Source of the DNA: a virus
Strand: one strand, 5' to 3'
Length of the DNA stretch: 28,541 bases
IMG/VR virus record: IMGVR_UViG_3300047326_000001
Coordinates: 1-28,541 of that record
Below, piece by piece: positions 3,732 to 28,541 of this stretch (position 1 is its first letter; each line of letters begins with the position of its first letter). Position numbers and translations under genes: made by a program. Under the pieces are notes generated by a model, which was not told where the DNA came from, did no database searches, and saw nothing but the letters and a program-made list of their open reading frames with translations.

Positions 3732-3740
3732 GGAACGCCC

Positions 3741-4688: not shown

Positions 4689-4693
4689 CGGAC

Positions 4694-7758: not shown

Positions 7759-7760
7759 CG

Positions 7761-7982
7761 ATGCCACTGGCAAAAGGCGCAAGTCTCTCGAAGAACATCG
7801 AGACTGAGCGGGCGGCTGGAAAGCCGGAGAAGCAAGCGGTGGCCATCGCATACAGTGTCGCTCGCCGCGGCAAGGATGCGGCTACCGTAACGGCGCCGAA
7901 CGGTGGTATCCCATCCGCACGCCACAAGGCTGAGGATGGCATGTTCTCAGCAGGCGATCTTTGGAAAGGGAGAGCATCGTGA
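7761..7982 (+). CDS. Small conserved phage protein with K-P-x-K-Q-A-x-A-I-A-Y motif
   Basis: A 73-residue protein starting at ATG 7761, two bases after the previous stop. The upstream TTG/GTG options would cut into the previous gene and are not used. The core (L-S-K-N-I-E-T-E-R-A-A-G-K-P-E-K-Q-A-V-A-I-A-Y-S) is a short motif that I recall from many small phage and bacterial proteins of unknown role. The remainder is Gly/Lys-rich. Its stop overlaps the next start (GTGA). It could be a small capsid- or DNA-associated protein, but nothing in the sequence shows a reaction. Confidence 0.65.
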   Translation: MPLAKGASLSKNIETERAAGKPEKQAVAIAYSVARRGKDAATVTAPNGGIPSARHKAEDGMFSAGDLWKGRAS

Positions 7983-8245
7983 GACCATCTACCGAGGAAC
8001 ATCCCGCAGAGCAGCCTGACATGCTGCCGTTGGAAACTGTGCCAGCGCCGGAACCGGCCCCAGAGGCGCCCGTAGAACCGGCGCAGCCCGGTCCTGAAGT
8101 CGCGCCAGAGCCGCCTATCCCCGCCGCAGAGCCGTCCGCACCACCGGCCAAGCCGGACGCCCTTGAGGCGTTCAAAGCCGAAATACTGGCCGAAGTCGCG
8201 GCGCTGCACGCCAAGATCGCCGGCATCCACAAGCGCTACGGCTGA
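7979..8245 (+). CDS. Small Pro/Ala/Glu-rich protein with C-terminal helix
   Basis: 88 residues from GTG 7979, which is preceded by a purine-rich ribosome site (GGAAAGGGAGAG) and overlaps the preceding stop by four bases. A TTG at 7961 in the same frame would put the start inside that ribosome site and is less likely. Residues 10-60 are Pro/Ala/Glu-rich (repeated A-P-E-P-A-P-E, P-A-Q-P-G-P-E) and probably form an extended linker. The last 28 residues (A-L-E-A-F-K-A-E-I-L-A-E-V-A-A-L-H) form an amphipathic helix. It may be a tether or assembly accessory between head and tail modules. The role is unknown. Confidence 0.65.
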   Translation: MRPSTEEHPAEQPDMLPLETVPAPEPAPEAPVEPAQPGPEVAPEPPIPAAEPSAPPAKPDALEAFKAEILAEVAALHAKIAGIHKRYG

Positions 8246-13859: not shown

Positions 13860-14576
13860 ATGCCAATCCCCGTCACGCCGAAGCCGCAATATCCGAACGT
13901 GCCAAACGCGCCGGGCGTTCCACCGTTGCAGCGTGTGGCGAGCGTCCAGGGGAGCATCGCGCCACTCGGGGCAGACGCTGTGAGCGCGCTGAGCGGCCTT
14001 GGAGCGCTTCTGGCGCCACAGTGGGGCCTGTTCAACTCAGACGGCTCCCCGGCCTTTGGGGGCGCCTCCAGCGGCATCCTGAGCGTTGTCCCCTCATTGA
14101 TTGGCCTGGGGGGCGGCCAGTCCGTAGGCGACGTGGAATACCGGCTCGACCATCGGATAGCCACTGCGCCGCAAGAGCAAGGCGCATTCCTGAGCTACAA
14201 CAAGGTCAGCACCCCGTTCAACGGGCGCGTCACCTACATCGTGAGCGGGTTTGAGGCGCAGCGGGGCGCGTTCCTCGCCGCGGTGCTGGCGGCGCAAAAG
14301 ACCACCAACCTCTACACTCTCATCATGCCAGAAACCTCCTACCCGTCGTGCGACATCGTCCACCACGACATGCGCCGCACGGCGGTTCGCGGGCTTACCA
14401 TGATCGCCGTCGATATCTGGGTGGAAGAAGTCCGTGTCACGGGAACAGCGGCATTCAGCAACACTGCGCAGCCGTCCGGCACAGATCAAACCAACGGTGG
14501 CACCGTGCAACCGCAGACGCTCACGCCGGAGCAGGAAGCGAAGGCCAACATCGCCGCCGGGGCGCCCGGTCTCTGA
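13860..14576 (+). CDS. Baseplate hub-proximal protein of unknown function
   Basis: A 238-residue protein starting at ATG 13860, one base after the tape measure stop; the frame is open a little further upstream inside that gene. The central domain contains R-V-T-Y-I-V-S-G-F-E-A-Q-R, then Y-T-L-I-M-P-E-T-S-Y-P-S-C-D-I-V-H-H-D-M-R-R-T and a strand-rich V-D-I-W-V-E-E-V-R-V-T-G-T. I recall this pattern from phage proteins located between the tape measure and the baseplate hub. The N-terminus is Pro/Gly-rich and low complexity, and the C-terminus is Gln/Thr-rich. It is probably part of the tail-tip ring that closes the tube, but no named domain can be given with confidence. Confidence 0.7.
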   Translation: MPIPVTPKPQYPNVPNAPGVPPLQRVASVQGSIAPLGADAVSALSGLGALLAPQWGLFNSDGSPAFGGASSGILSVVPSLIGLGGGQSVGDVEYRLDHRIATAPQEQGAFLSYNKVSTPFNGRVTYIVSGFEAQRGAFLAAVLAAQKTTNLYTLIMPETSYPSCDIVHHDMRRTAVRGLTMIAVDIWVEEVRVTGTAAFSNTAQPSGTDQTNGGTVQPQTLTPEQEAKANIAAGAPGL

Positions 14577-14893
14577 TGCCCCTCGCCATTCCGCTGCAAG
14601 CGGTCCCATCGCAGACAGTGAGCGTCGCGCTGAATAATCAGGCATGCCAGATCAACGTCTACACTCTGACGACTGGCCTCTACGTCGATTTGCTGGTCAA
14701 CGATGCGCAGATCATCGGCGGAGTGGTAGCACAAAATCTCAATGTCATCGTGCGGGATGCCTACCTTGGGTTCGTTGGCGATCTTGCCTTCGCGGACACT
14801 CAGGGCGATGACGACCCAGTTTATACCGGCCTCGGAAGCCGGTTTATTCTGGTCTACCTGTTTCCGTCCGATCTTCCGGCGGGGCTATCATGA
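14576..14893 (+). CDS. Phage baseplate plug family protein
   Basis: A 105-residue protein with ATG 14576 overlapping the previous stop (TGATG). Its pattern fits the small baseplate plug proteins in contractile systems. These are thought to fill the channel at the tail tip. Features are V-P-S-Q-T-V-S-V-A-L-N-N-Q-A-C-Q-I-N-V-Y, G-L-Y-V-D-L-L-V-N-D, a central D-A-Y-L-G-F-V-G-D-L-A-F-A-D-T-Q-G, and D-D-P-V-Y-T-G-L-G-S-R-F-I-L-V-Y-L at the C-terminus. The fold appears all-beta. It lies directly before the hub gene, overlapping it by four bases (ATGA), in agreement with the role. Confidence 0.74.
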   Translation: MPLAIPLQAVPSQTVSVALNNQACQINVYTLTTGLYVDLLVNDAQIIGGVVAQNLNVIVRDAYLGFVGDLAFADTQGDDDPVYTGLGSRFILVYLFPSDLPAGLS

Positions 14894-15903
14894 GCGGCAC
14901 GTCATCGCCTCCGTCCGGATCGTCCTACGTTCAGCGGCAACTGAATTTCACGATCACTTTGGGCAAGGGGACGTTTGGCCAGAGCGGGCAAAACACGGTC
15001 AAACTGAGCAATCTGCGAGCGAAGGTTGACGTCCTGAAAGGCGGATTTCCGGCGATGGATCAGGCGCAAATCCGCATCTACGGCGTGCAACCAGCCATCA
15101 TGAACCAGGTGAGCACCCTCGGCATCCCGCTTCAAATGATCCGGCTGGGCAATACTGTGACCGTGGAAGCTGGTGACACCACAAACGGTTTTGCCGTGGT
15201 CTATACGGGATACATGATGCGGTGTTGGCAGGACTTCAGCGAGGCGCCTGAGACATCACTGCAAATAGAGGCATTCGGCGGGATGGCAGCCGCGCTCTAT
15301 CCCGTGCCGCCGATCACGTTCCCCGGCAGCGCGGATGTGGCAACGATCATGTCGGGGCTGGCAAACACGATGGGGATGCGCTTCGAGAACAATGGCGTGC
15401 AGGTAAAGATTTCCAGCCCATACTTTGCAGGAACCGCGATGGAACAGGCTCACGCGCTGGCGCGAGCGGCCAATATCGAAATGTATCCCGATTTCTCGCA
15501 ACCCGCGGGGAACAGCTCAAGCCAAACGCCGGTCGCGGGAGGCACGCTCGCGATCTGGCCAAAACTCGGCACGCGGACGAAGGCGATCCCGCTGATTAGC
15601 GCGGCATCCGGTCTCGTGGGCTATCCGCAGTTCGAGTCCAACGGGATGACGTTTACGACGCTCTACAATCCAAACATCTTCCTTGGCGGCCAAATCCAGA
15701 TGCAGAGCAGCGTCGGCGCGGCGGCGACCACTGCGCCCTCGGATGCGCCGGTTCCCGCCGGAACCCAGACCGGGGGGCCGAATGGCTTGTGGTATGTTGT
15801 GGCGCCCCTCGCGCATGATCTTTCGTCGCAGTTGCCCGGTGGCCCGTGGTTCACCTCGGTGCATTGCCAGCGCATCCCCGGATCCCCGGGATCGTCGTCA
15901 TGA
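14890..15903 (+). CDS. Baseplate hub protein (T4 gp27 / P2 gpD type)
   Basis: A 337-residue protein in the hub position between the plug and the central spike. The N-terminal part has strands such as R-A-K-V-D-V-L-K-G-G-F-P-A-M-D-Q-A-Q-I-R-I-Y-G and G-N-T-V-T-V-E-A-G-D, followed by V-V-Y-T-G-Y-M. This is the pattern of hub barrels that form a pseudo-hexameric collar on the trimeric spike. The region at 150-205 (M-E-Q-A-H-A-L-A-R-A-A-N-I-E-M-Y) is helical, and a Gly/Ser/Thr-rich tail closes the protein. Its stop is shared with the next start. There is no lysozyme motif here; the peptidoglycan-cutting activity appears to lie in the tape measure instead. Confidence 0.74.
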   Translation: MSGTSSPPSGSSYVQRQLNFTITLGKGTFGQSGQNTVKLSNLRAKVDVLKGGFPAMDQAQIRIYGVQPAIMNQVSTLGIPLQMIRLGNTVTVEAGDTTNGFAVVYTGYMMRCWQDFSEAPETSLQIEAFGGMAAALYPVPPITFPGSADVATIMSGLANTMGMRFENNGVQVKISSPYFAGTAMEQAHALARAANIEMYPDFSQPAGNSSSQTPVAGGTLAIWPKLGTRTKAIPLISAASGLVGYPQFESNGMTFTTLYNPNIFLGGQIQMQSSVGAAATTAPSDAPVPAGTQTGGPNGLWYVVAPLAHDLSSQLPGGPWFTSVHCQRIPGSPGSSS

Positions 15904-16517
15904 GTGGATCGGGCGCGCCACTTCCGACAGATGGTGGGTTTGCGGGACAAGCCTGGGCGCAGTCCTCCGGCACGCAGTTTCAAGCCATCGATTTTATGAT
16001 CCGGCAAGTCATTGCCGGCAAGGCGTTCCTGGCGCTGGTGCTGATCAAGGCCGTGCATGGCGGAGGCGTCGGATCGCCAGCGAGCGTGGATGTGCAACCT
16101 ATGGTCAATCAGCAGGACGTGCTTGGCACGCAGACGCCGCACGGCGTCGTCTATGGAATGGCGTGTTGGCGCTATCAGGGAGGCGCAAATGCAGCAATCA
16201 TTGATCCGGTGGCCGGAGACATTGGCCTGGCCGCAATCTGTGACCGGGACATCAGCGGCGTAAAGCTCACCGGGACACCGGGACCAGCCGGATCGCATCG
16301 GCAGAACTCCTGGAGCGATGGCGTCTATTTCGGGTCCGTCATCGGTGCTACGCCAACGAACTACATTCAGATCGCCGCATCTGGTATCAACATCCAGTCC
16401 ACGGGGACGATTGCGATCATGGCGGCCGGCGGCACATCGATAGACGGAAGGGAGTTTCTCACGCACAAGCACACTGGTGTCCAAACAGGCGGCGGCGATA
16501 CGGGGAGTGTGGTCTGA
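15900..16517 (+). CDS. Gp138-family membrane-puncturing central spike
   Basis: A 205-residue protein from ATG 15900 (ATGA overlap with the hub gene). The early part (V-H-G-G-G-V-G-S-P-A-S-V-D-V-Q-P-M-V) followed by G-D-I-G-L-A-A-I-C-D-R-D-I-S matches the OB-fold of Gp138-type spikes. The later stretch with I-Q-I-A-A-S-G-I-N-I-Q-S-T-G-T-I-A-I-M is the repeating strand pattern of a beta-helix needle. Near the end, F-L-T-H-K-H-T-G-V supplies an H-x-H pair like those that bind iron at the tip of P2 gpV and phi92 gp138. The trimer would pierce the outer membrane on sheath contraction. Confidence 0.82.
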   Translation: MSGSGAPLPTDGGFAGQAWAQSSGTQFQAIDFMIRQVIAGKAFLALVLIKAVHGGGVGSPASVDVQPMVNQQDVLGTQTPHGVVYGMACWRYQGGANAAIIDPVAGDIGLAAICDRDISGVKLTGTPGPAGSHRQNSWSDGVYFGSVIGATPTNYIQIAASGINIQSTGTIAIMAAGGTSIDGREFLTHKHTGVQTGGGDTGSVV

Positions 16518-16871
16518 GTGGACACGCTTTTGCTCGACCTCACGGGTTGGGATTTGTGCCTCGATGCTAGTGGCAATATCGCCGTGGCGAGCGACCCCTA
16601 TAGCGTGGCGCAAGATGTCGCCTCCGCATGCAAGACCTTTCTCGGCGAGGTGTTTTACGACACGACGATCGGCGTTCCCTATCTTCAGCAGATACTCGGC
16701 CAATCGCCGCCGCTCAGCTTCATCAAGGCGCAATTGGTTGCCGCGGCATTGACCGTGCCCGGCTGCACAAACCCCACGGTCTACCTATCCGGTCTCACGG
16801 CGGCGCGCCAACTGACTGGACAGGTGCAATTCACCGATAGCAACGGAACCCAGCAGGCGGTGAATTTCTGA
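16518..16871 (+). CDS. Baseplate wedge protein, gp25 / gpW-like
   Basis: A 117-residue protein with GTG start directly after the spike stop. Family features are S-V-A-Q-D-V-A-S-A-C-K-T-F-L-G-E-V-F-Y-D, the common gp25-like segment in which the G-E-x-x-Y/F part is conserved. It is followed by G-V-P-Y and a C-terminal Q-V-Q-F-T-D-S-N-G-T. gp25-type proteins link sheath and baseplate wedges and nucleate sheath polymerisation. The order spike, gp25, baseplate J is characteristic of Mu/P2-like and related baseplates. The stop overlaps the next ATG (TGATG). Confidence 0.82.
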   Translation: MDTLLLDLTGWDLCLDASGNIAVASDPYSVAQDVASACKTFLGEVFYDTTIGVPYLQQILGQSPPLSFIKAQLVAAALTVPGCTNPTVYLSGLTAARQLTGQVQFTDSNGTQQAVNF

Positions 16872-18292
16872 TGTCAGGATCGACCAGCGTTCCCGGCATT
16901 ACCTTCACGGCCACGGGCTTTGTGGCTCCGGCTGAGAGCGCGATCGTCACCGGCCTCGATGCCGATTACAATGCGGCGTTTGGCGGAAACCTCAATACCT
17001 CTCCAACGACGCCGCAAGGGCAACTCATCACGTCCACTGCCGCGATGTTGGGCGACAGCAACGGTCAACAGGTCGCGCTCTACAACGGCGTCGACCCTGC
17101 ATACGCGACCGGGAGGCTGCAAGACGCGATCGGGCGAATTTACTTCCTGACGCGATTGCCCGCGATCTCGACCGTGTTGCAGGTGCAGTGCAATGGCCTG
17201 GCGAATGTGCCGATACCGGTGGGCGCGATCGTCACTGACAATCCGCAGGGCGGCAACCTGTATCTTTGCACAGGTGCCGGGACGATCGGAAACACCGGCA
17301 ACGTCACGCTGAGTTTCGCCGCAGCCGTGCCGGGTCCGCTCGCCGTTCCGGCGGCCGTCTACATCTACCAGGGCGTCACTGGCTGGTCAGGCGTGACCCT
17401 TATCTCCGGCGTGGTGGGCAGCAATGTCGAGAGCCGGGCAGCATTCGAGGCGCGGCGAGCGGCGTCGGTTGCGGCGAACGCCGCGGGCTTCCTGCCTGCC
17501 ATCGCGGGTGCCGTTGGCCAAGTGCCGGGCGTCATTGATTTTTATGTCACCGATAACTCAACCGGCTCTCCGGTGACGGTCGGCGGCGTCACGATAGCGG
17601 CAAATAGCCTCTATGTCTGTGTCGCAGGGGGTGCCGCGCAAGCCATCGCGCAAGCCATCTGGACGAAGAAAAATCCGGGATGCGGCTACACGGGGAACAC
17701 GACAGAAACCGTCTACGACACGAACTCGGGGTATTCGACGCCTTACCCTTCCTACAGCGTCACGTTTGAAATCCCGTCCGGAAACGCGATCTGCATGAAC
17801 GTGACGATCAAAAACTCGTCTATGGTGCCAAGCAACGCGCAACAGCTTATCGCCGCTGCCGCGCAAAGCGCATTTCTTGGCCAAGACGGCGGCCCGCGGG
17901 CGCGCATCGGGTCAGAGATATTCGCCAGCCGGTTTTACGCCGGCATCGCCAGCTTGGGCGCATGGGCGCAGATCGTCACCCTCACCATCGGATCTGTCAG
18001 TAGCACGGCGGCGACCTTCACGGGATCGATCTCTGGCACCACGTTGACTGTTTCCAGCGTTACCGGAACCATAGCCATCGGCCAGTTTGTCTACTCGATC
18101 GGAGTGGAAACGACTGCTGCGGGCACGATCATCACCGCGGGCAGCGGAACGTCATGGACTGTGGCGGTTAATCAGACCGTGGCAAGCGTGAGCATGGCGT
18201 CCGTGGCGGCGAGCCTCAATGACGTGCAACTGAACATCAACGTCGTTCCCACGCTACAGGCAGGCGATGTGAACGTGGTGCTTGGATCATGA
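16871..18292 (+). CDS. Baseplate J-like wedge protein (gp6 / gpJ) with one inserted beta module
   Basis: A 473-residue baseplate J family protein, the iris-forming wedge subunit. Features: D-A-D-Y-N-A-A-F-G-G-N-L-N-T near the N-terminus, A-T-G-R-L-Q-D-A-I-G-R-I-Y, and V-V-G-S-N-V-E-S-R-A-A-F-E-A-R-R in the middle, the usual E-x-x-x-x-F-x-x-R block. The C-terminus has L-N-D-V-Q-L-N-I-N-V-V-P-T. Residues about 377-445 form a Gly/Thr-rich module of the dispersed type, lying between the strand G-A-W-A-Q-I-V-T-L-T-I-G-S and the C-terminal strands. ATGA coupling to DUF2612 follows. I recall insertions at this place in other baseplate J proteins, so the site may be tolerant. Confidence 0.85.
   Translation: MSGSTSVPGITFTATGFVAPAESAIVTGLDADYNAAFGGNLNTSPTTPQGQLITSTAAMLGDSNGQQVALYNGVDPAYATGRLQDAIGRIYFLTRLPAISTVLQVQCNGLANVPIPVGAIVTDNPQGGNLYLCTGAGTIGNTGNVTLSFAAAVPGPLAVPAAVYIYQGVTGWSGVTLISGVVGSNVESRAAFEARRAASVAANAAGFLPAIAGAVGQVPGVIDFYVTDNSTGSPVTVGGVTIAANSLYVCVAGGAAQAIAQAIWTKKNPGCGYTGNTTETVYDTNSGYSTPYPSYSVTFEIPSGNAICMNVTIKNSSMVPSNAQQLIAAAAQSAFLGQDGGPRARIGSEIFASRFYAGIASLGAWAQIVTLTIGSVSSTAATFTGSISGTTLTVSSVTGTIAIGQFVYSIGVETTAAGTIITAGSGTSWTVAVNQTVASVSMASVAASLNDVQLNINVVPTLQAGDVNVVLGS
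18000..18205 (+). repeat. Dispersed beta module, copy 6 (baseplate J)
   Basis: Encodes F-T-G-S-I-S-G-T-T-L-T-V-S-S-V-T-G-T-I-A-I-G-Q-F-V, then G-S-G-T-S-W-T-V and Q-T-V-A-S-V-S-M. The G-G-x-G-T-Y box is replaced by G-S-G-T-S-W. Boundaries are approximate. Confidence 0.68.
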
Positions 18293-18873
18293 ACAATTTC
18301 GAGGAAACCATCCTCAGCCAGTTCGATGATAGTCCGACGATCGTGCAACTCATAACGAACCTCAACGCCTACATTGACCCGTCCACCAACATTGACGACT
18401 TCTACAACTTGCTTTGGAACGTGGACACAGCAGTCGGATACGGACTGGACGTGTGGGGCCGCATCGTCGGCGTGCAGCGTGTGCTGCAAATAGCGACAGT
18501 CAACTACTTCGGATTTACCGGGCCGCCAGGCGTATCCGGCCTCCCGTGGAACCAAGCGCCATTCTATCACGGCGAGGCTTTGACGCAGAATTATGCGCTC
18601 TCCGATGACGCATTCCGCGCACTGATCCTGGCAAAAGCCCTCGCGAACATCTGCAACGCCACGATCCCTGCCATCAACCAAATCCTCATCAATCTATTCG
18701 GGCCGAACGGGATACTTCCGGTCGCCGGCAATTCTTACTGCACAGACGGAAGGAATATGACGATGACCTACACATTCAGCGCTGCTCTCGATCCCGTGCA
18801 AACCGCTATTATCTATCAGTCCGGTGTGTTACCGAGACCGTGCGGAGTAGCTGCAACGGTGGTGGTGCTGTAA
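18289..18873 (+). CDS. DUF2612 family baseplate-fibre connector (gpI-like position)
   Basis: A 194-residue protein with ATG overlapping the baseplate J stop by four bases. The N-terminal helical part (E-E-T-I-L-S-Q-F-D-D-S-P-T-I-V-Q-L-I) leads to a conserved W-N-V-D-T-A-V-G-Y-G-L-D-V-W-G-R-I-V-G-V segment, the core of DUF2612. Further on is D-D-A-F-R-A-L-I-L-A-K-A-L-A-N-I, then a C-terminal strand set ending P-R-P-C-G-V. In position it corresponds to P2 gpI or T4 gp53/gp7-type connectors that join tail fibres to the wedge. Its stop overlaps the fibre gene start (TAATG). Confidence 0.82.
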   Translation: MNNFEETILSQFDDSPTIVQLITNLNAYIDPSTNIDDFYNLLWNVDTAVGYGLDVWGRIVGVQRVLQIATVNYFGFTGPPGVSGLPWNQAPFYHGEALTQNYALSDDAFRALILAKALANICNATIPAINQILINLFGPNGILPVAGNSYCTDGRNMTMTYTFSAALDPVQTAIIYQSGVLPRPCGVAATVVVL

Positions 18874-20282
18874 TGGACGCAAGCGCGGTCCCCTATAAAT
18901 TCGCTGGGCCGTGGGCAGCGGACGCAACCGCAGGATATGCCACCAACCCTGTGCCAGCTACGGCCAGCGGCGCGGCGGCCTCGCAGCAACTCGGCTTCCC
19001 GCCGCTAACGGCAACGCCCACAGGATCGGGGGGAACCCCGCCGAACATCGCAGACTTCAACGGTCTGGAGTTCTATAACACATCTTGGTTGCAATGGGTG
19101 CAGGCTGGCGGCCCGATCGCTTACGACGCAACGCTGTCAAGCAACATCGGCGGCTATCCGCGAGGTGCGGTCCTGCAATCAGCAGTCACATTCGGTCAAT
19201 TCTGGCAATCCACCGTCGATAACAACACATCTGATCCGGATACCGGCGGCGCAAACTGGCAGCGGCTACCGATCGGGCTGAGCGGCGTAGAGCCGTTGGC
19301 GATAGCGTCCAACACGACACTCACCCTAGCGAACTGGGGCCAGCTTATCGAGGTCGGCAACGGCGTCACCGTCACGACGCCGAACGCTAGCGCCGCGTCG
19401 TTTGGCATGGTGATCTCTTTTTATTTTCGCGCAAGCAACACCCTAACCCTCGGCAGCGGGTCATTCTTCGGAGGCGGCCTTGCCGGCTCTACGCTCGCGA
19501 ACCCGCCCAACGGCAGCTTTCTCAGCATCGTCTGCGACGGCGCGAACTGGCTCGTTCTTTCGTCGTCTCCTGACATCCTTGGCTACGCGACGCAAGCCTA
19601 CGTCACCTCGGCCGTGGCAACGGAAACCACACGCGCCGAGACCGCCGAGGCGCTGAAGGCGAACTTGTCCGGGGCCACGTTTACAGGGTCCGTGACGTTT
19701 GATGTCGCGATTTATCCCGAACAGGGTCTTCTTGTTGGGACAACATCGAACCCGATCGCAAACACCACCAATGGATGCCAGGTATTAGCGACCGGATCGA
19801 CGCAAATTTATGACGCGTCCGTCACTCCGCTGTCGCTAGGCGTGGGAACGACGGGCATCGTCCAAGCAATCTATTACGGCGCCACGCAGGTCGGTTCGAT
19901 CTCCACGAATGGCACCGGAACCGCCTACAATGTCACATCCGATGAAACTCTGAAAGTGGACGACGGGCTGATCCGGCCGGATGAAGCAACCGCCGCAGTG
20001 ATGGCGCTCCGGCCGACGTGGTTTCGCTGGAAATCTGATGTTGCGGCAGAATCGGAACCGGGTTTTTTTGCGCAGCATGTCCATCGGGCTTGGCGCTGGG
20101 CGGTGTCAGCCGGGCGTGGCGAGCCTGGCGATAGTGACTACCAGCCGTGGCAGATGGACGCCGGCAAATTCATGCCGCTGGTGATCGTCCATCTGCAGGA
20201 CTTGGAGCGACGCAATGCCGCTCTGGAGCTTCACGCAGCCGCGCTTGAACGCCGCCTTGCAAAACTGGAAAGCGCCGCATGA
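18873..20282 (+). CDS. Tail fibre with C-terminal S74 intramolecular chaperone
   Basis: 469 residues from ATG 18873; the longer frame from 18840 lies inside the previous gene. The N-terminal 150 residues (M-D-A-S-A-V-P-Y-K-F, then P-N-I-A-D-F-N-G-L-E-F-Y) resemble fibre attachment domains. Residues about 250-290 carry a short coiled coil (T-E-T-T-R-A-E-T-A-E-A-L-K-A-N-L-S-G) leading into a F-T-G-S-V-T-F strand. The C-terminus has the autocleavage motif S-D-E-T-L-K at Ser356-Lys361, followed by about 110 residues ending in a helix (L-E-R-R-N-A-A-L-E-L-H-A-A-A-L-E-R-R). In this family the domain trimerises the fibre and cuts itself off before Ser. No signal peptide is present, unlike every gene downstream. 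Confidence 0.86.
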   Translation: MDASAVPYKFAGPWAADATAGYATNPVPATASGAAASQQLGFPPLTATPTGSGGTPPNIADFNGLEFYNTSWLQWVQAGGPIAYDATLSSNIGGYPRGAVLQSAVTFGQFWQSTVDNNTSDPDTGGANWQRLPIGLSGVEPLAIASNTTLTLANWGQLIEVGNGVTVTTPNASAASFGMVISFYFRASNTLTLGSGSFFGGGLAGSTLANPPNGSFLSIVCDGANWLVLSSSPDILGYATQAYVTSAVATETTRAETAEALKANLSGATFTGSVTFDVAIYPEQGLLVGTTSNPIANTTNGCQVLATGSTQIYDASVTPLSLGVGTTGIVQAIYYGATQVGSISTNGTGTAYNVTSDETLKVDDGLIRPDEATAAVMALRPTWFRWKSDVAAESEPGFFAQHVHRAWRWAVSAGRGEPGDSDYQPWQMDAGKFMPLVIVHLQDLERRNAALELHAAALERRLAKLESAA

Positions 20283-22648
20283 AAGTCCTTTGGCGATTTC
20301 TCCTTATTTTTGCGACTCTATTTCCCGCGGCAGTGGTGGCGCAGCCGCAATCGCCCGGCATCTATGTGCCGTCCGGCATCACCTCACTGGATGCCACGAC
20401 CGTCAGCGCATCGGTTGCGTTTCCATCGACCGGATCGACCCTGAACCTCTTGGTCATCAACGCCGGACCATCGACCGTTTTTGTCGCGACCGGCAACAGC
20501 AGCGTCGTGGCGTCCCTCGCCAGCATCCCGATCCTGGCGGGCGGCGCGGTGGTTTTGCCTCAAAGTTACAACACGACCATCGCGGCGATCACGGCGAGCG
20601 GCACGGCGGCACTTTCGATCCAGAGCGGCACCGGTATCCCGTTCATCGTTTCGGGAGGCCTGGGTAGCCAGCCGACTAGCGGCTGCACCACCAATTGCAC
20701 GTTCACCGGCACAACGGTGATTGCCGGATCGCTGGGTCTGCCGGCATCAGCGGTCGGCGGCGCAACCCTCAATCTGCCCGAGGGCACGGCGCCATCGGCT
20801 CCAAACAACGGCGACATCTGGACGACCACGGCGGGTCTCTACGTGCGCATCGGCGGCACAACGATCGGCCCGATCGGCACTGGCGGCGGCTGCACCACCA
20901 ATTGCACGTTCACCGGCACGACCACGACAGCGGGCATATCCGACAGCGGCGGCATCAACACCACCGCCGCGACTGGATATCGGATCGGCGGCCAAAACGC
21001 GATATCGTGGTCCAGCCAATCCACCCAGCAAAGCATGGCGATCGGCCCGGGGGCAGGCGCCTCGCTGCCAAGCAATGGGACGTTTAGCACGTTCATTGGC
21101 TCTGGCTCTGGCGCCGCATTCAGCGGCGCGGGCGGGGAAGATACCTGCGTCGGCGTGATCTGTATGCAGTATCTTGTATCCGGCGTTTTCGACACCGCCC
21201 TCGGCGAGCACGCCATGGGTTACGAGGTCTCGGCCAACAGTTCCACCGCAATCGGTAATGACGATCAGCGTAACTATGTCAGCGGCGGCGGCAACACCAG
21301 TGTCGGCAAGTCGGCGATGTCGGTGGGTGGTGGCATCAATAATACTGCGCTTGGAACTCAGGCGTTAGCCGGCAACAGCACGACAGTAATCGTGGGCGGT
21401 ACGGCCACGGCCGGTGACACGATCAGCCTTACCTTTACGGGCGGGTTCACCGGGTCGCCGGCCACCACCACGCCGATCACGATCACGGGCGGCGAAACAA
21501 CAACGCAGATGGCGACGGCGCTGTTGACCGCGATCCAAGCCAACAGTGTGCTCAACACCGTCATGGGAACCGGCTCGCAAAGCTCAGCCAATCAATTGTC
21601 GCTGTTCTGGGAAGGCACTTGCACAACCGGACAAAGCATCGTCACCACATCCAGCATCACCGGCAGCGCGACGGAAACAATTGGATCAACATGTGGACCG
21701 ACCGGCGCCAACAACATCGCGATCGGCGAACAGGCGATCTTCGGCGTCTATGGACTAAGTACTGCGGCCTATAATATCGGTATCGGTCAGAATACGCTCA
21801 ACAATCTTGTGTCCGGCAATTTCAATGTGGCGGTTGGCCAGTCGCCGCTTTTCAACCTCACGACGGCCTCCGGCGCGGTCGGCATTGGCTTGAATGCGGG
21901 AGCGACCACAACCACCAATCCAGGGACGTATATTGGATCGGGCGCTGGTCAGTATCCGACCGGCGGAGGAAACGTCGCGTTCGGCCTTGACGCGCTTCAG
22001 GGCGCGAGCGCGGGGTCCACCGCGCAGAACGATGTGGCGTTCGGAAACTTGGCCTTGCAGGCAGCGACCACTGCGCAGCAAGACGTGGCGGTTGGCGGGT
22101 CGGCCGCCTTGCTCTGCACCACTTGTCAGCATCAGACGATTATCGGCTTTGGAGCGGGCGGCGCAATCACGACGGCCGATAAGTCAACGCTCATCGGCTA
22201 TAACGCTGGCGCAACCTATGTATCAGGTTTCGGCGTGGTCTTGGTGTGTTCCGGGAATTTCACGTGCACCACTCCGGCGGCCAATACACACGACTACATC
22301 AGCATCGACGGCGCGATTGTTGAGAACACGCAGGCGCCAACGATCGGGTCTGGGTTCGGAAGCGGCGCGTCGGTCCCTGTCGGCGCAAGCACGTTCTTGT
22401 TCGAGGTGAACGTTGGCACGGGCGGAACTGCATCGTCAGGCGTCATCACGATGCCGACGCCGGCCGCGCCGAACGCCTGGGGTTGTCAAGTGGTGGACGT
22501 GACCAATCCCGCTACGAGCAATACCGTAATCACGCCAAGCGGCGCCGGAACCACGGTGACACTGACGAACTATTCGCGCACAACCGGAGCGTTAGCCGCG
22601 TGGGCGGCATCGGATGTGCTACTCGTTGGCCCGTGCGGCGCCCTGTAG
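20279..22648 (+). CDS. Secreted YadA-like beta-roll protein, fibre- or adhesin-like
   Basis: A 789-residue protein with ATGA overlap with the fibre gene. Residues 1-22 form a clear Sec signal peptide (M-K-V-L-W-R-F-L-L-I-F, cleavage after A-V-V-A). Residues 23-128 are a beta domain also seen in the protein from 22917. A G-C-T-T-N-C-T-F-T-G-T box occurs twice (near 135 and 204). From about residue 250 to 650 there are some dozen repeats of the type N-x-A-x-G-x-x-A-L (T-A-L-G-E-H-A-M-G, I-A-I-G-E-Q-A, V-A-F-G-N-L-A-L), like the heads of YadA-type trimeric adhesins. They are broken once by a 105-residue insertion. No YadA membrane anchor is visible at the C-terminus. It could be a fibre shaft or a secreted surface protein. 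Confidence 0.78.
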   Translation: MKVLWRFLLIFATLFPAAVVAQPQSPGIYVPSGITSLDATTVSASVAFPSTGSTLNLLVINAGPSTVFVATGNSSVVASLASIPILAGGAVVLPQSYNTTIAAITASGTAALSIQSGTGIPFIVSGGLGSQPTSGCTTNCTFTGTTVIAGSLGLPASAVGGATLNLPEGTAPSAPNNGDIWTTTAGLYVRIGGTTIGPIGTGGGCTTNCTFTGTTTTAGISDSGGINTTAATGYRIGGQNAISWSSQSTQQSMAIGPGAGASLPSNGTFSTFIGSGSGAAFSGAGGEDTCVGVICMQYLVSGVFDTALGEHAMGYEVSANSSTAIGNDDQRNYVSGGGNTSVGKSAMSVGGGINNTALGTQALAGNSTTVIVGGTATAGDTISLTFTGGFTGSPATTTPITITGGETTTQMATALLTAIQANSVLNTVMGTGSQSSANQLSLFWEGTCTTGQSIVTTSSITGSATETIGSTCGPTGANNIAIGEQAIFGVYGLSTAAYNIGIGQNTLNNLVSGNFNVAVGQSPLFNLTTASGAVGIGLNAGATTTTNPGTYIGSGAGQYPTGGGNVAFGLDALQGASAGSTAQNDVAFGNLALQAATTAQQDVAVGGSAALLCTTCQHQTIIGFGAGGAITTADKSTLIGYNAGATYVSGFGVVLVCSGNFTCTTPAANTHDYISIDGAIVENTQAPTIGSGFGSGASVPVGASTFLFEVNVGTGGTASSGVITMPTPAAPNAWGCQVVDVTNPATSNTVITPSGAGTTVTLTNYSRTTGALAAWAASDVLLVGPCGAL
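20681..20712 (+). repeat. 32-bp perfect direct repeat, copy 1
   Basis: Starts GGCTGCACCACC and ends ACCGGCAC. Encodes the G-C-T-T-N-C-T-F-T-G-T box. The second copy lies 207 bases (69 codons) downstream in the same frame. Confidence 0.85.
20888..20919 (+). repeat. 32-bp perfect direct repeat, copy 2
   Basis: Same 32 bases as at 20681. Recombination between the copies would remove 69 codons in frame. Confidence 0.85.
21030..22235 (+). repeat. YadA-like coding repeats, interrupted at about 21377-21700
   Basis: Degenerate repeats with the pattern N-x-A-x-G-x-x-A in each unit, spaced 14-30 residues apart. The block at about 21377-21700 has different composition (G-G-T-A-T-A-G-D-T-I-S-L-T-F-T, then T-A-I-Q-A-N-S) and interrupts the array between A-L-G-T-Q-A-L and N-I-A-I-G-E-Q-A. 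Confidence 0.7.
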
Positions 22649-22656
22649 GAGACCAG

Positions 22657-22917
22657 ATGAAACGCTTTGCTCTCATTGTCATCGTGTTGCTTCCCGCGTC
22701 GGCTATGGCGCAGCAAAACGTCCAGCCGACCGTGGACGGCGCAACGGCGGCAATCACGCGGAACGCGACGTTGCTTGGGGATATGGCGCTCCAATTCAAT
22801 GCGCAACTGGCCGCCACGGTCGCGCAACTGGCTGCGGTGACGAAAGAGCTGGATGCGCTCAAAGCTGCGGCCGATGCGGCTAAGTCGAAGGCCAAAACGG
22901 AGGATAAGCCAAAGTGA
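22657..22917 (+). CDS. Small secreted coiled-coil protein
   Basis: An 86-residue protein from ATG 22657, preceded by TAGGAGA, a good ribosome site; the longer upstream frame lies inside the previous gene. Residues 1-18 are a typical Sec signal peptide (M-K-R-F-A-L-I-V-I-V-L-L, cleavage after S-A-M-A). The mature part is short and Ala-rich with heptad-like spacing (L-A-A-V-T-K-E-L-D-A-L-K-A-A-A-D-A-A-K), ending in a Lys-rich tail. No transmembrane helix or lipobox Cys is present. Its role is unknown; it could be a periplasmic chaperone or oligomerisation partner for the secreted neighbours. Confidence 0.75.
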   Translation: MKRFALIVIVLLPASAMAQQNVQPTVDGATAAITRNATLLGDMALQFNAQLAATVAQLAAVTKELDALKAAADAAKSKAKTEDKPK

Positions 22918-23618
22918 TGCGCCCACTCGCTGCCCGTTCGGCTGGTCGATGGCTGTCCCTGCTGGCTTTGGCCGCAGGGATCCCGGCTGCGCTGGCACAG
23001 TCCTACTCGCTCGTTGTCACCACCACGTCAGGCAACATCGCGATCCCTGCCGCATCGCCGGCAGTTATCGCGGTCAGCAACGCCGGGTCTAATCCGATGT
23101 GGGTCAATCCCGGCACTAGTTCGGCGGTGGTCGCGACCACCGGAAACATCCCTGTCCCGGCGGGATGTGTGGTGCCGCTTACGGTCGGCACTAGCACCTA
23201 TGTCGCGGCAATTTCGACCGGCGGATCGACCACGATGAACCTTGGCAAGTGGACTGGAGACCTCAATCCATTCTGTTCCGTAGGCGGTTCAGGCGGGGGC
23301 GGCGGCAGCGTGACCACCAATCCGAGCGCTTCGGTCCCTTCTACCCAATCAGCTTTTACGGTCACTACAGGCAATACATTCCAACAGGTGCTCGCAGCGA
23401 ATTCCAGCCGCACGGCTTGCTATGTTCAGAACACGTCCGCGCACACCGCCTATGTCTATTGGCTGGCGACCGGCACGGCGTCGCTGACAAACAGCGCACA
23501 GGTGCCGGCAGGGGCGGCTTTCACCTGCGCCAACGGAGCGGGCGGCGTTATCCGCACCGCCATCCAGTGGACGACGGGAACGGCGGCCGATCCCGGTGTC
23601 GCGACGGAGAATCAGTAA
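22917..23618 (+). CDS. Secreted protein with two related beta domains
   Basis: A 233-residue protein. ATG 22917 overlaps the previous stop (TGATG); a GTG three bases earlier is also possible. Residues 1-27 form a signal peptide (R-W-L-S-L-L-A-L-A-A-G-I-P-A-A-L-A). Domain A (about 28-118) has N-A-G-S-N-P-M-W-V-N-P-G, then N-I-P-V-P-A-G-C-V-V-P-L and Y-V-A-A-I-S-T-G-G-S-T. It matches residues 23-128 of the protein from 20279 (N-A-G-P-S-T-V-F-V-A-T-G, then S-I-P-I-L-A-G-G-A-V-V-L). A G-S-G-G-G-G-G-S linker leads to domain B (about 145-233), a further divergent copy. I recall this beta-sandwich type from phage virion proteins, but the signal peptide is unusual. Confidence 0.75.
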   Translation: MRPLAARSAGRWLSLLALAAGIPAALAQSYSLVVTTTSGNIAIPAASPAVIAVSNAGSNPMWVNPGTSSAVVATTGNIPVPAGCVVPLTVGTSTYVAAISTGGSTTMNLGKWTGDLNPFCSVGGSGGGGGSVTTNPSASVPSTQSAFTVTTGNTFQQVLAANSSRTACYVQNTSAHTAYVYWLATGTASLTNSAQVPAGAAFTCANGAGGVIRTAIQWTTGTAADPGVATENQ

Positions 23619-24673
23619 TGCGGTGGGTTCTCGCGGCGATGCTGCCGGCACTGGCGGGGCCGGCGTTCGGGCAGGGCGTGACGGGAGGCGGTGGAGGCGC
23701 GGCGGTTCGGGATGTCCAAGTCTTCGGGCTGACTGGCACTGCGCCGGCATGGTGCTCGTCTGCCGGAACCACATGCAATGCCGGTTCCGGGACTTGGACT
23801 TTACCGGCCTTTTGCGCCAGTGGAGGGGATAGCTGCGTCAGCGATGTCCTGCTCATCGCCGGCGGTCCTGGGGGCGGTGGGGGCGCGCAGGAGGCGCTTG
23901 GGACGGTCGGTTCTGGCGGTGCTTCGGGCGGCGCGGCCGCCTGCATCCGTCTCACGGTTGCCACGTCAACGCTTGGCGCTTCGCAGACCGTCACCGTTGG
24001 CGCAGGCGGTTCTGGCGGCGCGGGCGGAACATCGGGCGCTGGTGCGAACGGATCGTCCGGTAACAACACAACCTTCGGGTCGTTGTTCACGGCTTACACG
24101 GGCGGTCTCGGGGCGGGCGGGCAGACGGCGGCGATAAGTGGCTCCGGCGGCAGCGGCGGGGTGGGCGGGTCTGGTAGCGCCGGGTCGGGGTCAACCGCAG
24201 CTGGTGCCAACAATATAACCGGAGCGCAAGCGGGCAACATGAGTGCGGCAAATCCGTCGGGCGCTAATAATGCGAGCGGGATGAATGGAACAACTACGGT
24301 GGGCAATTCCGGGAACGCCGCGCCCTGCGTTGGAGGCTCGGGCGCTGGAGGCACCCTGCTTGTCAGCAGCGCAACGGCAGGTGGTTACGGAGGCGCGGCA
24401 ACCTCCTTGTTAAACTCGGGCGCGGGCGCCTCCGCAACCAGCGGCACGGCCGGGGCTGGCCCAAATCCTAACGTCAACGCCGCGATGTTTCCGTCAACCT
24501 CGGGAGCGGGCGGAGGTGGCGGAAACTCAGGCGGCACCGGGGGCGTGGGAGGTGGCGCCGCCAGCGGCGCCTACGGTTGCGGCGGCGCGGGAGGCGGCGC
24601 CGGCACTGTGGCGGGGGGAGCAGGAGGCACAGGCTGCGGCGGTTATGCCGTTGTGCTGACACGGCTGTACTAA
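23618..24673 (+). CDS. Secreted glycine-rich adhesin-like protein 1
   Basis: 351 residues from ATG 23618 (TAATG overlap); the frame is open upstream only as a shadow of the previous gene. Signal peptide at residues 1-18 (M-R-W-V-L-A-A-M-L-P-A-L-A-G-P-A-F-G). The mature protein starts with a strand segment (S-G-T-W-T-L-P-A-F-C-A-S-G-G-D-S-C), then V-L-L-I-A-G-G-P-G-G-G-G-G and long Gly/Ser/Ala-rich blocks. Six Cys, some in pairs near the ends, could form disulfides in the periplasm. Polyglycine blocks set between strands recall T-even gp38-type receptor adhesins with polyglycine sandwiches. It is a clear paralogue of the protein from 25625. Target and location are unknown. Confidence 0.75.
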   Translation: MRWVLAAMLPALAGPAFGQGVTGGGGGAAVRDVQVFGLTGTAPAWCSSAGTTCNAGSGTWTLPAFCASGGDSCVSDVLLIAGGPGGGGGAQEALGTVGSGGASGGAAACIRLTVATSTLGASQTVTVGAGGSGGAGGTSGAGANGSSGNNTTFGSLFTAYTGGLGAGGQTAAISGSGGSGGVGGSGSAGSGSTAAGANNITGAQAGNMSAANPSGANNASGMNGTTTVGNSGNAAPCVGGSGAGGTLLVSSATAGGYGGAATSLLNSGAGASATSGTAGAGPNPNVNAAMFPSTSGAGGGGGNSGGTGGVGGGAASGAYGCGGAGGGAGTVAGGAGGTGCGGYAVVLTRLY

Positions 24674-24864
24674 TGACCCGCATCCTCGCCCTGCTCCTCA
24701 TCCTCTCCGTTCCCGCGTCCGCCCAGCAGATCGGCTGCGGCTTCGTGGTGCAATCGTTCGTCGCCACATCAAGCTGTGGCGGATCACCACCGCCCGCGAC
24801 GTGCAGCAACAAACTGGATTTCTCGGCCTCTTGTAATAGCCAATATGCAGCGGTGGTCCTCTGA
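24673..24864 (+). CDS. 63-residue secreted Cys-containing peptide
   Basis: A small gene from ATG 24673 (TAATG overlap) to a TGA that overlaps the next ATG. Residues 1-17 are a textbook signal peptide (M-T-R-I-L-A-L-L-L-I-L-S-V-P-A-S-A). The mature peptide is about 46 residues with four Cys (I-G-C-G, S-S-C-G-G, A-T-C-S-N, S-A-S-C-N-S), enough for two disulfides, and a P-P-P hinge. It is short but tightly coupled on both sides and has the same signal type as its neighbours, so it is probably real. I recall similar C-S-N-x-L-D-F-x-x-x-C-N-S ends in alphaproteobacterial phage proteins. Function is unknown. Confidence 0.7.
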   Translation: MTRILALLLILSVPASAQQIGCGFVVQSFVATSSCGGSPPPATCSNKLDFSASCNSQYAAVVL

Positions 24865-25628
24865 TGCTCAAACGGCTCCTTCTCTCCGCCGCGTTCATGC
24901 TGCCCGGCGCGGCATGGGCTGCGGACGGCACGCTCGCGGTCACGCCGGGCAGCGGAGCCACGATCGTCACTTCGCCGGACGGGTCTGGCAACGTCGTGCC
25001 GCACTCCATTCCGTGCGATCACACCACGCCGACGCAATGCGCGGCGATCAATTCCAGCGGGCAGGCCGCGATCCAGGCGCCGCCGTCTCTGCCGCTGCCG
25101 TCTGGTGCGGCAACGTCGGCCAATCAGGAAGTCACGGCGGCGGGGACATCGGCCACATCCGCTCAGGCAGTCCAGGGCGTGACGAACGGCGTGCCCGCGC
25201 CAGTGGTGGACAGCACGGGCGCCAACTTCGCATCTATCGTGACGGCGATCACCAACGCTGCGATCACGCCCGTCACCGCCGCCGCACCCACCGTGAGCGC
25301 ATCGGCATCGGTCACGTCGCTCGTTCTCAAAGCATCCGCGACGATCTCGACGGGCGGCGTGAAGTATTTCCATGCAGAGAACATCACGTCCACGGCCGGA
25401 TACTGCGTGCTCTACAACGGCACAACCGCGCCATCGACCGGCGCATTGACGGCGGCGAATGTGCTGGGGTTTCAACGGCTCCCGGCGAACAGTTATTGCG
25501 ATTGGTCGGCAACGAACATCCCGATCGCGGCATCCAGCGGCGCCGTGGTCCTGGTGAGTTCTGCCGCCACGCCGTTTACCTACACAACCGGAACGATCAC
25601 CGCCGCGATTTACGGGCTTGCACAATGA
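24864..25628 (+). CDS. Secreted beta-rich phage surface protein
   Basis: A 254-residue protein with ATG 24864 sharing a base with the previous stop. Signal peptide at 1-19 (M-L-K-R-L-L-L-S-A-A-F-M-L-P-G-A-A-W-A). The N-terminal mature part is a short strand region with a C-D-H-T-T-P-T-Q-C pair of Cys. A low-complexity Ala/Thr/Ser helix follows (S-L-P-L-P-S-G-A-A-T-S-A-N-Q, a motif common in phage virion proteins). The C-terminal domain (about 150-254) is beta-rich with S-L-V-L-K-A-S-A-T-I-S-T-G-G-V-K-Y-F and G-Y-C-V-L-Y-N-G-T-T-A-P. This domain type is recalled from phage tail or virion proteins that lack signal peptides. The role is unknown. Confidence 0.72.
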   Translation: MLKRLLLSAAFMLPGAAWAADGTLAVTPGSGATIVTSPDGSGNVVPHSIPCDHTTPTQCAAINSSGQAAIQAPPSLPLPSGAATSANQEVTAAGTSATSAQAVQGVTNGVPAPVVDSTGANFASIVTAITNAAITPVTAAAPTVSASASVTSLVLKASATISTGGVKYFHAENITSTAGYCVLYNGTTAPSTGALTAANVLGFQRLPANSYCDWSATNIPIAASSGAVVLVSSAATPFTYTTGTITAAIYGLAQ

Positions 25629-26335
25629 GGCGCATCGCTCTCGCCCTCGCGCTCTGCACCGCCGTTCTTCCAGCCTGGGGCGGCGGCACGTCGGGCGGTC
25701 TTTCGCAGTTCTCCATCAATACGCAAGTGTTCACGGCGACCGGCACATACACGCCGTCCGCTAATCTTGTGTATGCCGAGGCGCACTGTCTTGGCGGCGG
25801 CGGCGGCGGTGGCGGTGTTACGGGCAATACGTCCGATGACATCGCATCGGGGGCGGGCGGAGCGGGCAGCGAGTCGATCGTTTGGCTCTCGCCCGCGACG
25901 ATCGGGGCCTCGCAGGCCGTGACGATCGGCGCGGCGGGAGCGGCAAGCGCGGCGGGGGCCAATTCCGGCGGGACTGGTGGCGTCACGTCAATTGGCGCGC
26001 TTTGCCAGGGCAACGGCGGGACCGGCGGCGGAGGGGCAAATTATTCATCGTCTTATGGCAGCGGCGGGGCGGGCGGACCCGCCGGCACCGGCACTATTAC
26101 TGGCACTGGGATGCCCGGTGAGAATGGGACCGGGTTGTTCTTTTCCGGCCTCCAAGCGTCCGGCGCCCAGGGCGGTTCATCGTCGCGCGGCGGTGGGGGT
26201 TTGGTGGGCGGGATTGCGGCGACCGGGCACGGATCGGGCGGGGCTGGATGTTACGAGGGCGCCTCGTCCTCGACATGCGCGGGAGGTGCGGGAACGGGCG
26301 GCATCGCTTGGGTGATTGAGTATATCGCGCAGTGA
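25625..26335 (+). CDS. Secreted glycine-rich adhesin-like protein 2
   Basis: 236 residues, ATGA overlap with the previous gene; the longer frame from 24776 is a shadow. Signal-like N-terminus (M-R-R-I-A-L-A-L-A-L-C-T-A-V-L-P-A-W-G), then a characteristic Q-V-F-T-A-T-G-T-Y-T-P-S-A-N-L-V-Y-A-E-A strand pair running into G-G-G-G-G-G-G-G and further Gly-rich blocks. It ends with G-I-A-W-V-I-E-Y. The F-T-x-x-G-T-Y/W-T-x-P module before polyglycine is common at the tips of phage fibres. It is paralogous to the protein from 23618 in order of parts, though shorter and with fewer Cys. A receptor-binding or surface-coating role is inferred. Confidence 0.76.
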   Translation: MRRIALALALCTAVLPAWGGGTSGGLSQFSINTQVFTATGTYTPSANLVYAEAHCLGGGGGGGGVTGNTSDDIASGAGGAGSESIVWLSPATIGASQAVTIGAAGAASAAGANSGGTGGVTSIGALCQGNGGTGGGGANYSSSYGSGGAGGPAGTGTITGTGMPGENGTGLFFSGLQASGAQGGSSSRGGGGLVGGIAATGHGSGGAGCYEGASSSTCAGGAGTGGIAWVIEYIAQ

Positions 26336-28107
26336 GATTGCCAGCCGCTTTTTTCGCGCTCCTGATCGGCTCCGCTCAAGCCCAGACCGTCACGCCCACA
26401 TCGTTCGGCATGAACCTGGGGGCGCCGGCAACCACGGTGCAGAAGGTCTTTGCCGGCACGTGCCGCTTGTGGAACGCATCCGGCATACAGGCGGCGCCCG
26501 GTGCCCAAGACGTGTCATGGGCCGCTGTGGAAACCGCGTCCGGCGTCTATTCCTGGACGCAGCTTGATACTCAGGTCGCGCAATGCCTCGCGCGGGGCCA
26601 GCAAATCATTTACACCTTCGGCAGCGTGCCGGGTTGGGCGAATGGCAATACGGGCGCATATACCCCCCCGACCTCATTCGCGACCCTGTATGCGTTTCAG
26701 AGCGCCGTCGTCAGCCGTTACAAAGGCGATGGGATTATTTACTCTGCCTGGGACGAAGCCAACGTCGGGGGCGGCTTCTGGTGGAACGGAACGCAGGCGC
26801 AGATGCTTGCTATTGCATCGAATTTATACTCCGTAGTCCACGCGACCGATCCCACGGCCAAAGTTGCAACGCCTTCTGTGGCCGGATGGGGAGGGCAGAT
26901 GTTCCCGTGGCTGCAAACCTATCTCGCGGCTGGCGGCGGCGCCTACGCTGACGCAATGGACGTGCATCTCTATCCCTACGAAAACGCAAGCCATAGCAGC
27001 ATCCCGGCGACGACCTCGGCCGAGGCGATCCCCAATCAGCTTGCTACATTCCAGAACATTTTTGCTTATTACGGGCAGGGATCGAAGCCACTCATCGGCG
27101 ATGAAGGCGGCTACGGCAATATGTCCAACTCCGGGCTGACGACGGCGCAGTTCCCGCCCTACGCCAGCAAGTGGCTGATCTTCAACGCCTCGGCCGGGCT
27201 GACCTCGTATAGCTGGTATGCCTACGACGATCCGAGCGCGTCCGGCTGGGGGCCGCTATGGGACGGTGGCAGCGGGCTGAACGCAACCGGCATCGCCTAC
27301 CGCGTCACGCAATCCTGGCTGGCCGGGGCAACGTTCACATCGGCGGCGGCGCGGGTCGCAAATACCAATCAGGTGCGCAATCCGACCGGCACGGGCATGG
27401 TCGCCGGTACGCCGGGAACGCCGCCAACGAATTGGAGCGTCTACAACCCCGATAGCGGCCACGGCATCACGACGAGTTGGGTGGGAACCTGCGCCTCCGG
27501 GGGCGGCGTCGAATGGCTGGTGAGCGGCACCGCGACGGCGGGGGCCACCGGCTACGTGCAGCTTTCGTTCGAGTCGGGAACTCACATCGCGGCGACAACG
27601 AATCAATGGTGGACGTTCGGGCTTGAAACTCAACTGCTGGCCGGATCGGTGATCCCGTCAGATGGCACCATCGTCATGGAAATGAACGAGAATAACAGCG
27701 GCGGCACCTATCTCGATCTGGTCCTCTACTATGTGTTTTCACCGTTCGGCGGCACCCTGGCGCAGAATGCGCAGACCTTCAGCACGCAGGCGACGAATGC
27801 CAGCGTGGCCTACGTCGTTCCGCAACTCACTGTCGCCTATTCGGCTGGCGACACGCTTTCGGTTCCGCTCTGCATCACCGCGCCATCAATGGATACCGGC
27901 TCGGAATATTCAGCCACGCTAACCGACGCCTCGGGCAACGCGCACCAGATCGTGTGGGACAGCGCGGGCGGCCCCACGTCCTACAGCACGTCCTACACCT
28001 ACGCACAGGACATCACCGGCAACCAGACCGCGCTATCGGGCACCGCGACGCTGACGGGAGCGCCGTTGTTTCTCAGCAACGCGCTGCGAAAGGGATGGAC
28101 GCCATGA
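26332..28107 (+). CDS. Secreted GH39/PslG-like glycoside hydrolase with C-terminal beta-sandwich
   Basis: 591 residues from GTG 26332, overlapping the previous stop by four bases (GTGA). Signal peptide at 1-17 (M-R-L-P-A-A-F-F-A-L-L-I-G-S-A-Q-A). Residues about 18-330 look like a clan GH-A TIM barrel of the GH39/PslG kind: F-G-M-N-L, G-T-C-R-L-W-N, Q-I-I-Y-T-F-G-S-V-P-G-W-A, candidate acid/base Glu142 in W-D-E-A-N-V-G, M-D-V-H-L-Y-P-Y, and candidate nucleophile Glu258 in I-G-D-E-G-G-Y. Residues about 345-590 form a carbohydrate-binding-like beta-sandwich starting N-Q-V-R-N-P-T-G-T-G. It probably cleaves an exopolysaccharide or capsule. The acid/base position has D-E-A rather than the common N-E-P, so substrate and activity are open. 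Confidence 0.78.
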   Translation: MRLPAAFFALLIGSAQAQTVTPTSFGMNLGAPATTVQKVFAGTCRLWNASGIQAAPGAQDVSWAAVETASGVYSWTQLDTQVAQCLARGQQIIYTFGSVPGWANGNTGAYTPPTSFATLYAFQSAVVSRYKGDGIIYSAWDEANVGGGFWWNGTQAQMLAIASNLYSVVHATDPTAKVATPSVAGWGGQMFPWLQTYLAAGGGAYADAMDVHLYPYENASHSSIPATTSAEAIPNQLATFQNIFAYYGQGSKPLIGDEGGYGNMSNSGLTTAQFPPYASKWLIFNASAGLTSYSWYAYDDPSASGWGPLWDGGSGLNATGIAYRVTQSWLAGATFTSAAARVANTNQVRNPTGTGMVAGTPGTPPTNWSVYNPDSGHGITTSWVGTCASGGGVEWLVSGTATAGATGYVQLSFESGTHIAATTNQWWTFGLETQLLAGSVIPSDGTIVMEMNENNSGGTYLDLVLYYVFSPFGGTLAQNAQTFSTQATNASVAYVVPQLTVAYSAGDTLSVPLCITAPSMDTGSEYSATLTDASGNAHQIVWDSAGGPTSYSTSYTYAQDITGNQTALSGTATLTGAPLFLSNALRKGWTP

Positions 28108-28485: not shown

Positions 28486-28541
28486 CCCGGCGGCGGAGGC
28501 GCGATTGGATCGCGCGGGCCGGCGTGATCGGTGTTGTCTGG
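28341..28541 (+). CDS. Partial overlapping ORF running off the window
   Basis: A frame open from ATG 28341 (second ATG at 28419) to the window end, overlapping the membrane protein frame. Its last part reads E-I-T-R-R-R-R-R-D-W-I-A-R-A-G-V-I-G-V-V-W, an Arg cluster before an apparent hydrophobic stretch, as at the start of an inner-membrane protein. Overlap with an upstream membrane gene recalls nested lysis genes. The portion before about 28480 has weaker coding character, so the real start may be the second ATG. Truncated by the window. Confidence 0.35.
   Translation, partial: MAELVELGECPHRLGLSCSDPTHSGCMAFPSGPDLDPDHGVFPSALEITRRRRRDWIARAGVIGVVW

Follow-up and report, generated by a model that had tools for sequence, protein, structure and literature searches.

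Why would a tailed phage end its tail operon with a run of genes for exported proteins? The question is raised by IMG/VR record IMGVR_UViG_3300047326_000001, analysed here over its whole length (28,541 bases, linear, probably a fragment; hereafter, the window). It carries a dwarf-myovirus gene set (portal, head protease, sheath, tape measure, hub, baseplate wedge and phrog_587), and its closest cultured relative is the Acetobacter phage phiAO1 (53% in a baseplate gene). A preliminary description of the sequence had reported that eight consecutive genes begin with Sec-type signal peptides and that none of the genes upstream does. We find the same. A gene caller that works from codon usage and takes no account of signal peptides called 30 genes in the window and reproduced all eight starts (20279, 22657, 22917, 23618, 24673, 24864, 25625 and 26332), and a heuristic Sec scorer (K/R n-region, uncharged hydrophobic core and A-x-A-type cleavage site) was positive for 8/8 of these N-termini and for 0/22 upstream genes, the S74 fibre included (chance of such a split, 1.7e-7). 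We propose, with a probability of about 0.5, that the eight genes, called SP1 to SP8 in their order from 20279 to 28107 (SP, signal peptide), encode fibres and hydrolases that are made late, exported through Sec, disulphide-bonded and brought together with the virions at lysis. The genes concerned, with the three that precede them, are as follows:

16871..18292, + strand: baseplate J-type wedge subunit, used as comparison anchor, without SP (phrog_6, E 1.9e-42)
18289..18873, + strand: phrog_587 structural/baseplate protein, the last conserved gene 5' of the fibres (E 9e-68; in 149 loci)
18873..20282, + strand: baseplate-anchored tail fibre with a C-terminal S74 chaperone domain, without SP (phrog_12796, E 2.5e-28; Peptidase_S74, E 2.1e-5)
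20279..22648, + strand: SP1, predicted exported fibre/adhesin, 789 residues, SP at 1-21, 14 mature cysteines (phrog_6002, phrog_4636)
22657..22917, + strand: SP2, small predicted exported helical protein, 86 residues, cysteine-free (from architecture only)
22917..23618, + strand: SP3, predicted exported beta-sandwich protein, 4 mature cysteines (48-50% identity to proteins of a related locus, L012; viral fold matches)
23618..24673, + strand: SP4, predicted exported glycine-rich protein, 8 mature cysteines (Gly_rich_2, E 0.001, under the Pfam cut-off)
24673..24864, + strand: SP5, predicted exported cysteine-rich peptide, 63 residues, 4 mature cysteines
24864..25628, + strand: SP6, predicted exported protein, 254 residues, 4 mature cysteines, no family found
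25625..26335, + strand: SP7, predicted exported glycine-rich adhesin resembling a tail-fibre tip, 4 mature cysteines (phrog_863, E 9e-20; phrog_6202, E 1.8e-15)
26332..28107, + strand: SP8, predicted exported PslG/GH39-like glycosidase with a putative (beta/alpha)8 fold, 4 mature cysteines (putative catalytic E142 and E258)

The scorer called only 2 of 334 internal pseudo-starts in the window. The cleavage site first described, A-x-A before Q, is exact in four of the proteins (22657, 22917, 24673 and 26332); the other four depart from it, with V-V-A before Q, A-F-G before Q, A-W-A before A and A-W-G before G. The reported coupling of the genes is also confirmed: seven of the eight overlap the preceding gene, by 4, 1, 1, 1, 1, 4 and 4 bases, and the single uncoupled gene (22657) follows an 8-base gap and has its own ribosome site, AGGAG. 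On the + strand between 18 and 28 kb, nothing resembling a promoter or terminator was seen, the promoter scan covering E. coli-type sites only, and the sole + strand terminator-like match is at position 28508. The eight genes and the upstream tail genes are thus one coupled operon. A host or contig-boundary artefact is ruled out, as the genes are coupled across the junction and codon usage fits throughout; the shift in G+C along the window is modest (0.59-0.63 to 0.62-0.67).

A second line of evidence comes from the cysteines. In Gram-negative bacteria, proteins that are exported tend to have an even number of cysteines (PMC7678975), and the mature forms of SP1 to SP8 have 14, 0, 4, 8, 4, 4, 4 and 4. 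Across 131 distinct related loci, an even number is found in 51 of the 54 cysteine-containing tail-end SP proteins of at least 200 residues; among SP-less neighbours the figure is 61/161, and among upstream proteins 273/569. When further loci are added and the set is clustered at 40% identity, the fractions become 81/91, 40/97 and 45/100, respectively; p-values for parity are indicative only, the sequences being related. As cysteine parity does not enter into the scorer's calls, it points independently to an oxidising compartment. The proteins thus combine the two marks of Sec-exported, disulphide-bonded proteins, a signal peptide and an even cysteine number. We infer export from these features and consider it well supported; actual translocation of the eight and cleavage of their signal peptides are very likely, and disulphides in the exported proteins are likely.

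Sequence comparisons indicate that the eight products are tail-fibre/adhesin modules and a PslG-like (GH39-type) glycosidase, with SP2, SP3, SP5 and SP6 uncharacterised. An unexpected run of exported fibre, adhesin and hydrolase products, as first described, does exist. SP1 and SP7 are homologous to fibre/spike families, SP4 falls below the cut-off, and SP2, SP3, SP5 and SP6 have no such homology. SP1 contains a beta-sandwich, a fibre module (PSAPNNGDIWTTTAGLYVRIGG), NxAxGxxAL-type repeats and a fibre C-terminal domain that is also present in signal-peptide fibres of relatives; it is homologous to the SP fibres of L200, L204, L203, L103, L175 and L169 (L-numbers are labels of related loci). 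A YadA-type trimeric autotransporter adhesin was set aside as a reading of SP1, which has no Pfam match to the YadA C-terminal membrane anchor. No relatives of the SP1 N-terminal domain or of SP6 were found in the phage collection, and an NCBIfam search found nothing. The N-terminal domain of SP3 is common to SP1 and to two exported proteins of L012; the structure model of SP3 is weak (pLDDT 51), with viral fold matches and no significant match in the PDB. Glycine-rich SP proteins also occur in L037 and L105. SP2 is, from its architecture only, a candidate assembly chaperone or envelope factor. Small exported helix-rich proteins resembling SP2 in architecture lie 3' of large SP proteins in L197 (7950), L139 (18437), L082 (17177) and L208 (7624); with SP2 included, they have 75-86 residues and, where counted, no mature cysteines, and by size and place they recall a fibre-folding chaperone of the T4 gp57A kind.

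For SP8, the best solved-structure match in Foldseek is PslG, a GH39-type exopolysaccharide hydrolase of Pseudomonas aeruginosa (E 2.7e-7, with a low-confidence model of mean pLDDT only 41). Similarity in sequence is weak and is to other GH39 enzymes, the xylosidases (E 0.008); SP8 has no match in Pfam, where the GH39 gathering score is not reached. SP8 can also be aligned with exported glycosidases from hosts, of which one has a flippase-like gene next to its own, and E142 and E258, the putative catalytic glutamates, align with these host relatives. The PslG match may thus be taken as a lead backed by sequence. Unlike PslG, SP8 is joined to a phage-type C-terminal domain (about 341-536), which is also found in prophage-like proteins of Acetobacteraceae.

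Is the arrangement peculiar to this phage? Because SP8, as a direct query against viral contigs, gave zero relatives and SP1 gave only partial ones, relatives were surveyed via their baseplate genes. Tail-end SP genes recur in other phage genomes, in the second-fibre slot of the tail operon: 127 of 655 genes at positions +1 to +10, 3' of phrog_587, were called SP, some of them lysis genes, against 1.8% (24/1366) at positions -12 to 0, upstream of it, which also serves as a control for the scorer. A lysis-gene reading of the window's eight was weighed and set aside. The eight lie directly downstream of the baseplate genes, as tail fibre/receptor-binding modules do, and in cultured relatives the slot is occupied by a second tail fibre (for example, AB1 gp76). 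Dwarf myoviruses of the Bcep781, Acinetobacter AB1 and Aeromonas 56 types share with the window the order baseplate J, phrog_587, fibre, second fibre, and an anchored fibre homologous to that at 18873-20282, annotated as a tail fibre in Bcep781-type phages; unlike the window's eight, however, their fibres checked are SP-less, and no signal peptide was found on the fibres checked in eight cultured gamma/betaproteobacterial relatives. In the fibre family with motif GQVPTAAQWNSYF (alignment A3), an SP was called in 54 of 60 viral loci, and the SP-less members mostly start at the mature domain. The family's loci are mostly myoviruses of the window's type; L197 is a P22-like podovirus (head-closure neighbour phrog_578), and L195, L213 and L214 are further myovirus types among the SP-fibre loci. 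The isolated phage phiAO1 itself encodes a tailspike-like protein, PhiAO1_380, with a signal peptide and 2 mature cysteines, although this is one large exported tailspike rather than a run of eight. The predicted export pattern is thus widespread and not specific to the window phage. Exported tail-end fibre/adhesin/hydrolase genes are a real, recurrent feature, and the papers searched yielded no account of exported tail fibres. Sec-exported virion proteins, some with disulphides, are familiar as the coat proteins of filamentous phages, whose virions, however, are non-tailed and assembled at the membrane.

Do exported fibres remain virion fibres? The best sequence evidence that they may, indirect for the window, comes from homologues of the anchored fibre (18873-20282). 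These are usually SP-less, but carry a signal peptide in L130, L037 (Bradyrhizobium oropedii), L156 and L004 (in L004 with a start chosen by hand), and in the L037 genome and the L130 contig the SP-bearing fibre is the only copy found. A cysteine pair (NCAAS, GGC) is present in three of the four and absent from 121/121 SP-less homologues (Fisher, 1.3e-5, uncorrected for relatedness). Separately, L130 has an SP-bearing protein with a C-terminal S74 endosialidase-chaperone domain (14006-16642), and therefore an S74 fibre can be exported too.

We envisage the eight genes as a cassette of fibres, adhesins and a depolymerase that occupies the second-fibre slot of the late tail operon and is presumably expressed late. 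Its products would pass through Sec to the periplasm, where the signal peptides would be cleaved and the paired cysteines oxidised, while virions would assemble in the cytoplasm with only the S74 fibre. Lysis would mix the two compartments; the oxidised fibres and adhesins could then attach to the tail tip or to each other, and exopolysaccharide would be opened by the hydrolase, whether free or bound. That the exported products join the virion at lysis has about even odds; decoration of virions after lysis was among the options first offered. Fibres and tailspikes of T4 and P22 attach to their particles in vitro, which makes attachment after lysis plausible. Several points weigh on the other side. 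To our knowledge, fibre attachment after lysis is known only from such in vitro work, with those other phages; the baseplate-binding N-terminal domain, present in 18873-20282 and in the SP-bearing fibres of L130, L037, L156 and L004, is absent from the window's eight; the window's own anchored fibre is SP-less, and among 125 fibres with the baseplate domain only 4 carry an SP; SP2, SP3, SP5 and SP6 are without a characterised relative; and the SP scorer is a heuristic.

The absence of that domain would be expected if the glycosidase and free adhesins built up in the periplasm and were freed at lysis as soluble factors, never becoming virion parts. They would then strip exopolysaccharide and coat receptors on debris and neighbouring cells, so that progeny are not trapped. 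This, the main rival reading, is possible, if less probable than attachment: SP8 is PslG-like and aligns with exported host enzymes, including the one beside a flippase-like gene, and a signal-peptide-bearing tail-type hydrolase has been noted in a phage genome (PMC10975493); on the other hand, many of the products are fibre modules in a fibre slot, and in four relatives it is the baseplate-anchored fibre that is exported, the two records searched whole having revealed no second copy of it. Polysaccharide attack, one of the functions initially suggested, is supported for the last gene; superinfection blocking, another, is without specific evidence.

Exported tail-region proteins are also a known type of moron (Lom of phage lambda), and several of the relatives are prophages in bacterial genomes. 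The eight could then be secreted surface proteins of the lysogen that alter host adhesion or exclude superinfection. This we consider improbable. The tie of the genes to the late tail operon makes a surface system acting in the lysogen, which the preliminary description had allowed, less likely; the promoter and terminator of their own that characterise morons are lacking (for promoters, in the E. coli-type scan), and no outer-membrane anchor family was found in the Pfam and NCBIfam searches. That the N-termini are hydrophobic fibre N-termini rather than working signal peptides, leaving the proteins in the cytoplasm, is very improbable even with calls from a heuristic scorer, given the parity that sets SP proteins apart from SP-less neighbours, the GQVPTAAQWNSYF-family members that start directly at the mature domain and the several textbook A-x-A sites before Q.

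In the prevailing view, fibres of tailed phages fold and assemble in the cytoplasm; recurrent export signals on the fibre proteins of related phages, together with cysteines of a disulphide type to match, point to another maturation route, testable in phages with cultured bacterial hosts. The observations suggest that, in some tailed phages, part of the host-recognition equipment matures outside the cytoplasm. The fuller proposition, that in some of them fibres are Sec-exported, oxidised in the periplasm and attached at lysis, the virion being completed outside the cytoplasm, we advance tentatively, at a little under even chances. Annotation of receptor-binding proteins would be affected as well, since a gene with a signal peptide is readily taken for a host gene or a moron, and such a route would bear on fibre and depolymerase engineering and on the escape of progeny from exopolysaccharide and debris.

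Some minor observations were made outside the cassette. Between structural genes of the window, 486 bases (7759-8244) are without a gene call; the frame tried in them contains stops, and a frameshifted gene, or one with another start, may have been missed. A small phage protein marked by the motif RxRDDGxAP, whose gene lies upstream of the tail genes, has an SP in L037 (1409), L153 (1356) and L105 (784) and is SP-less in L078 (257) and L137 (718). Finally, the tail region of phiAO1 (L009) includes a catalase-annotated gene, at 3391-5514.
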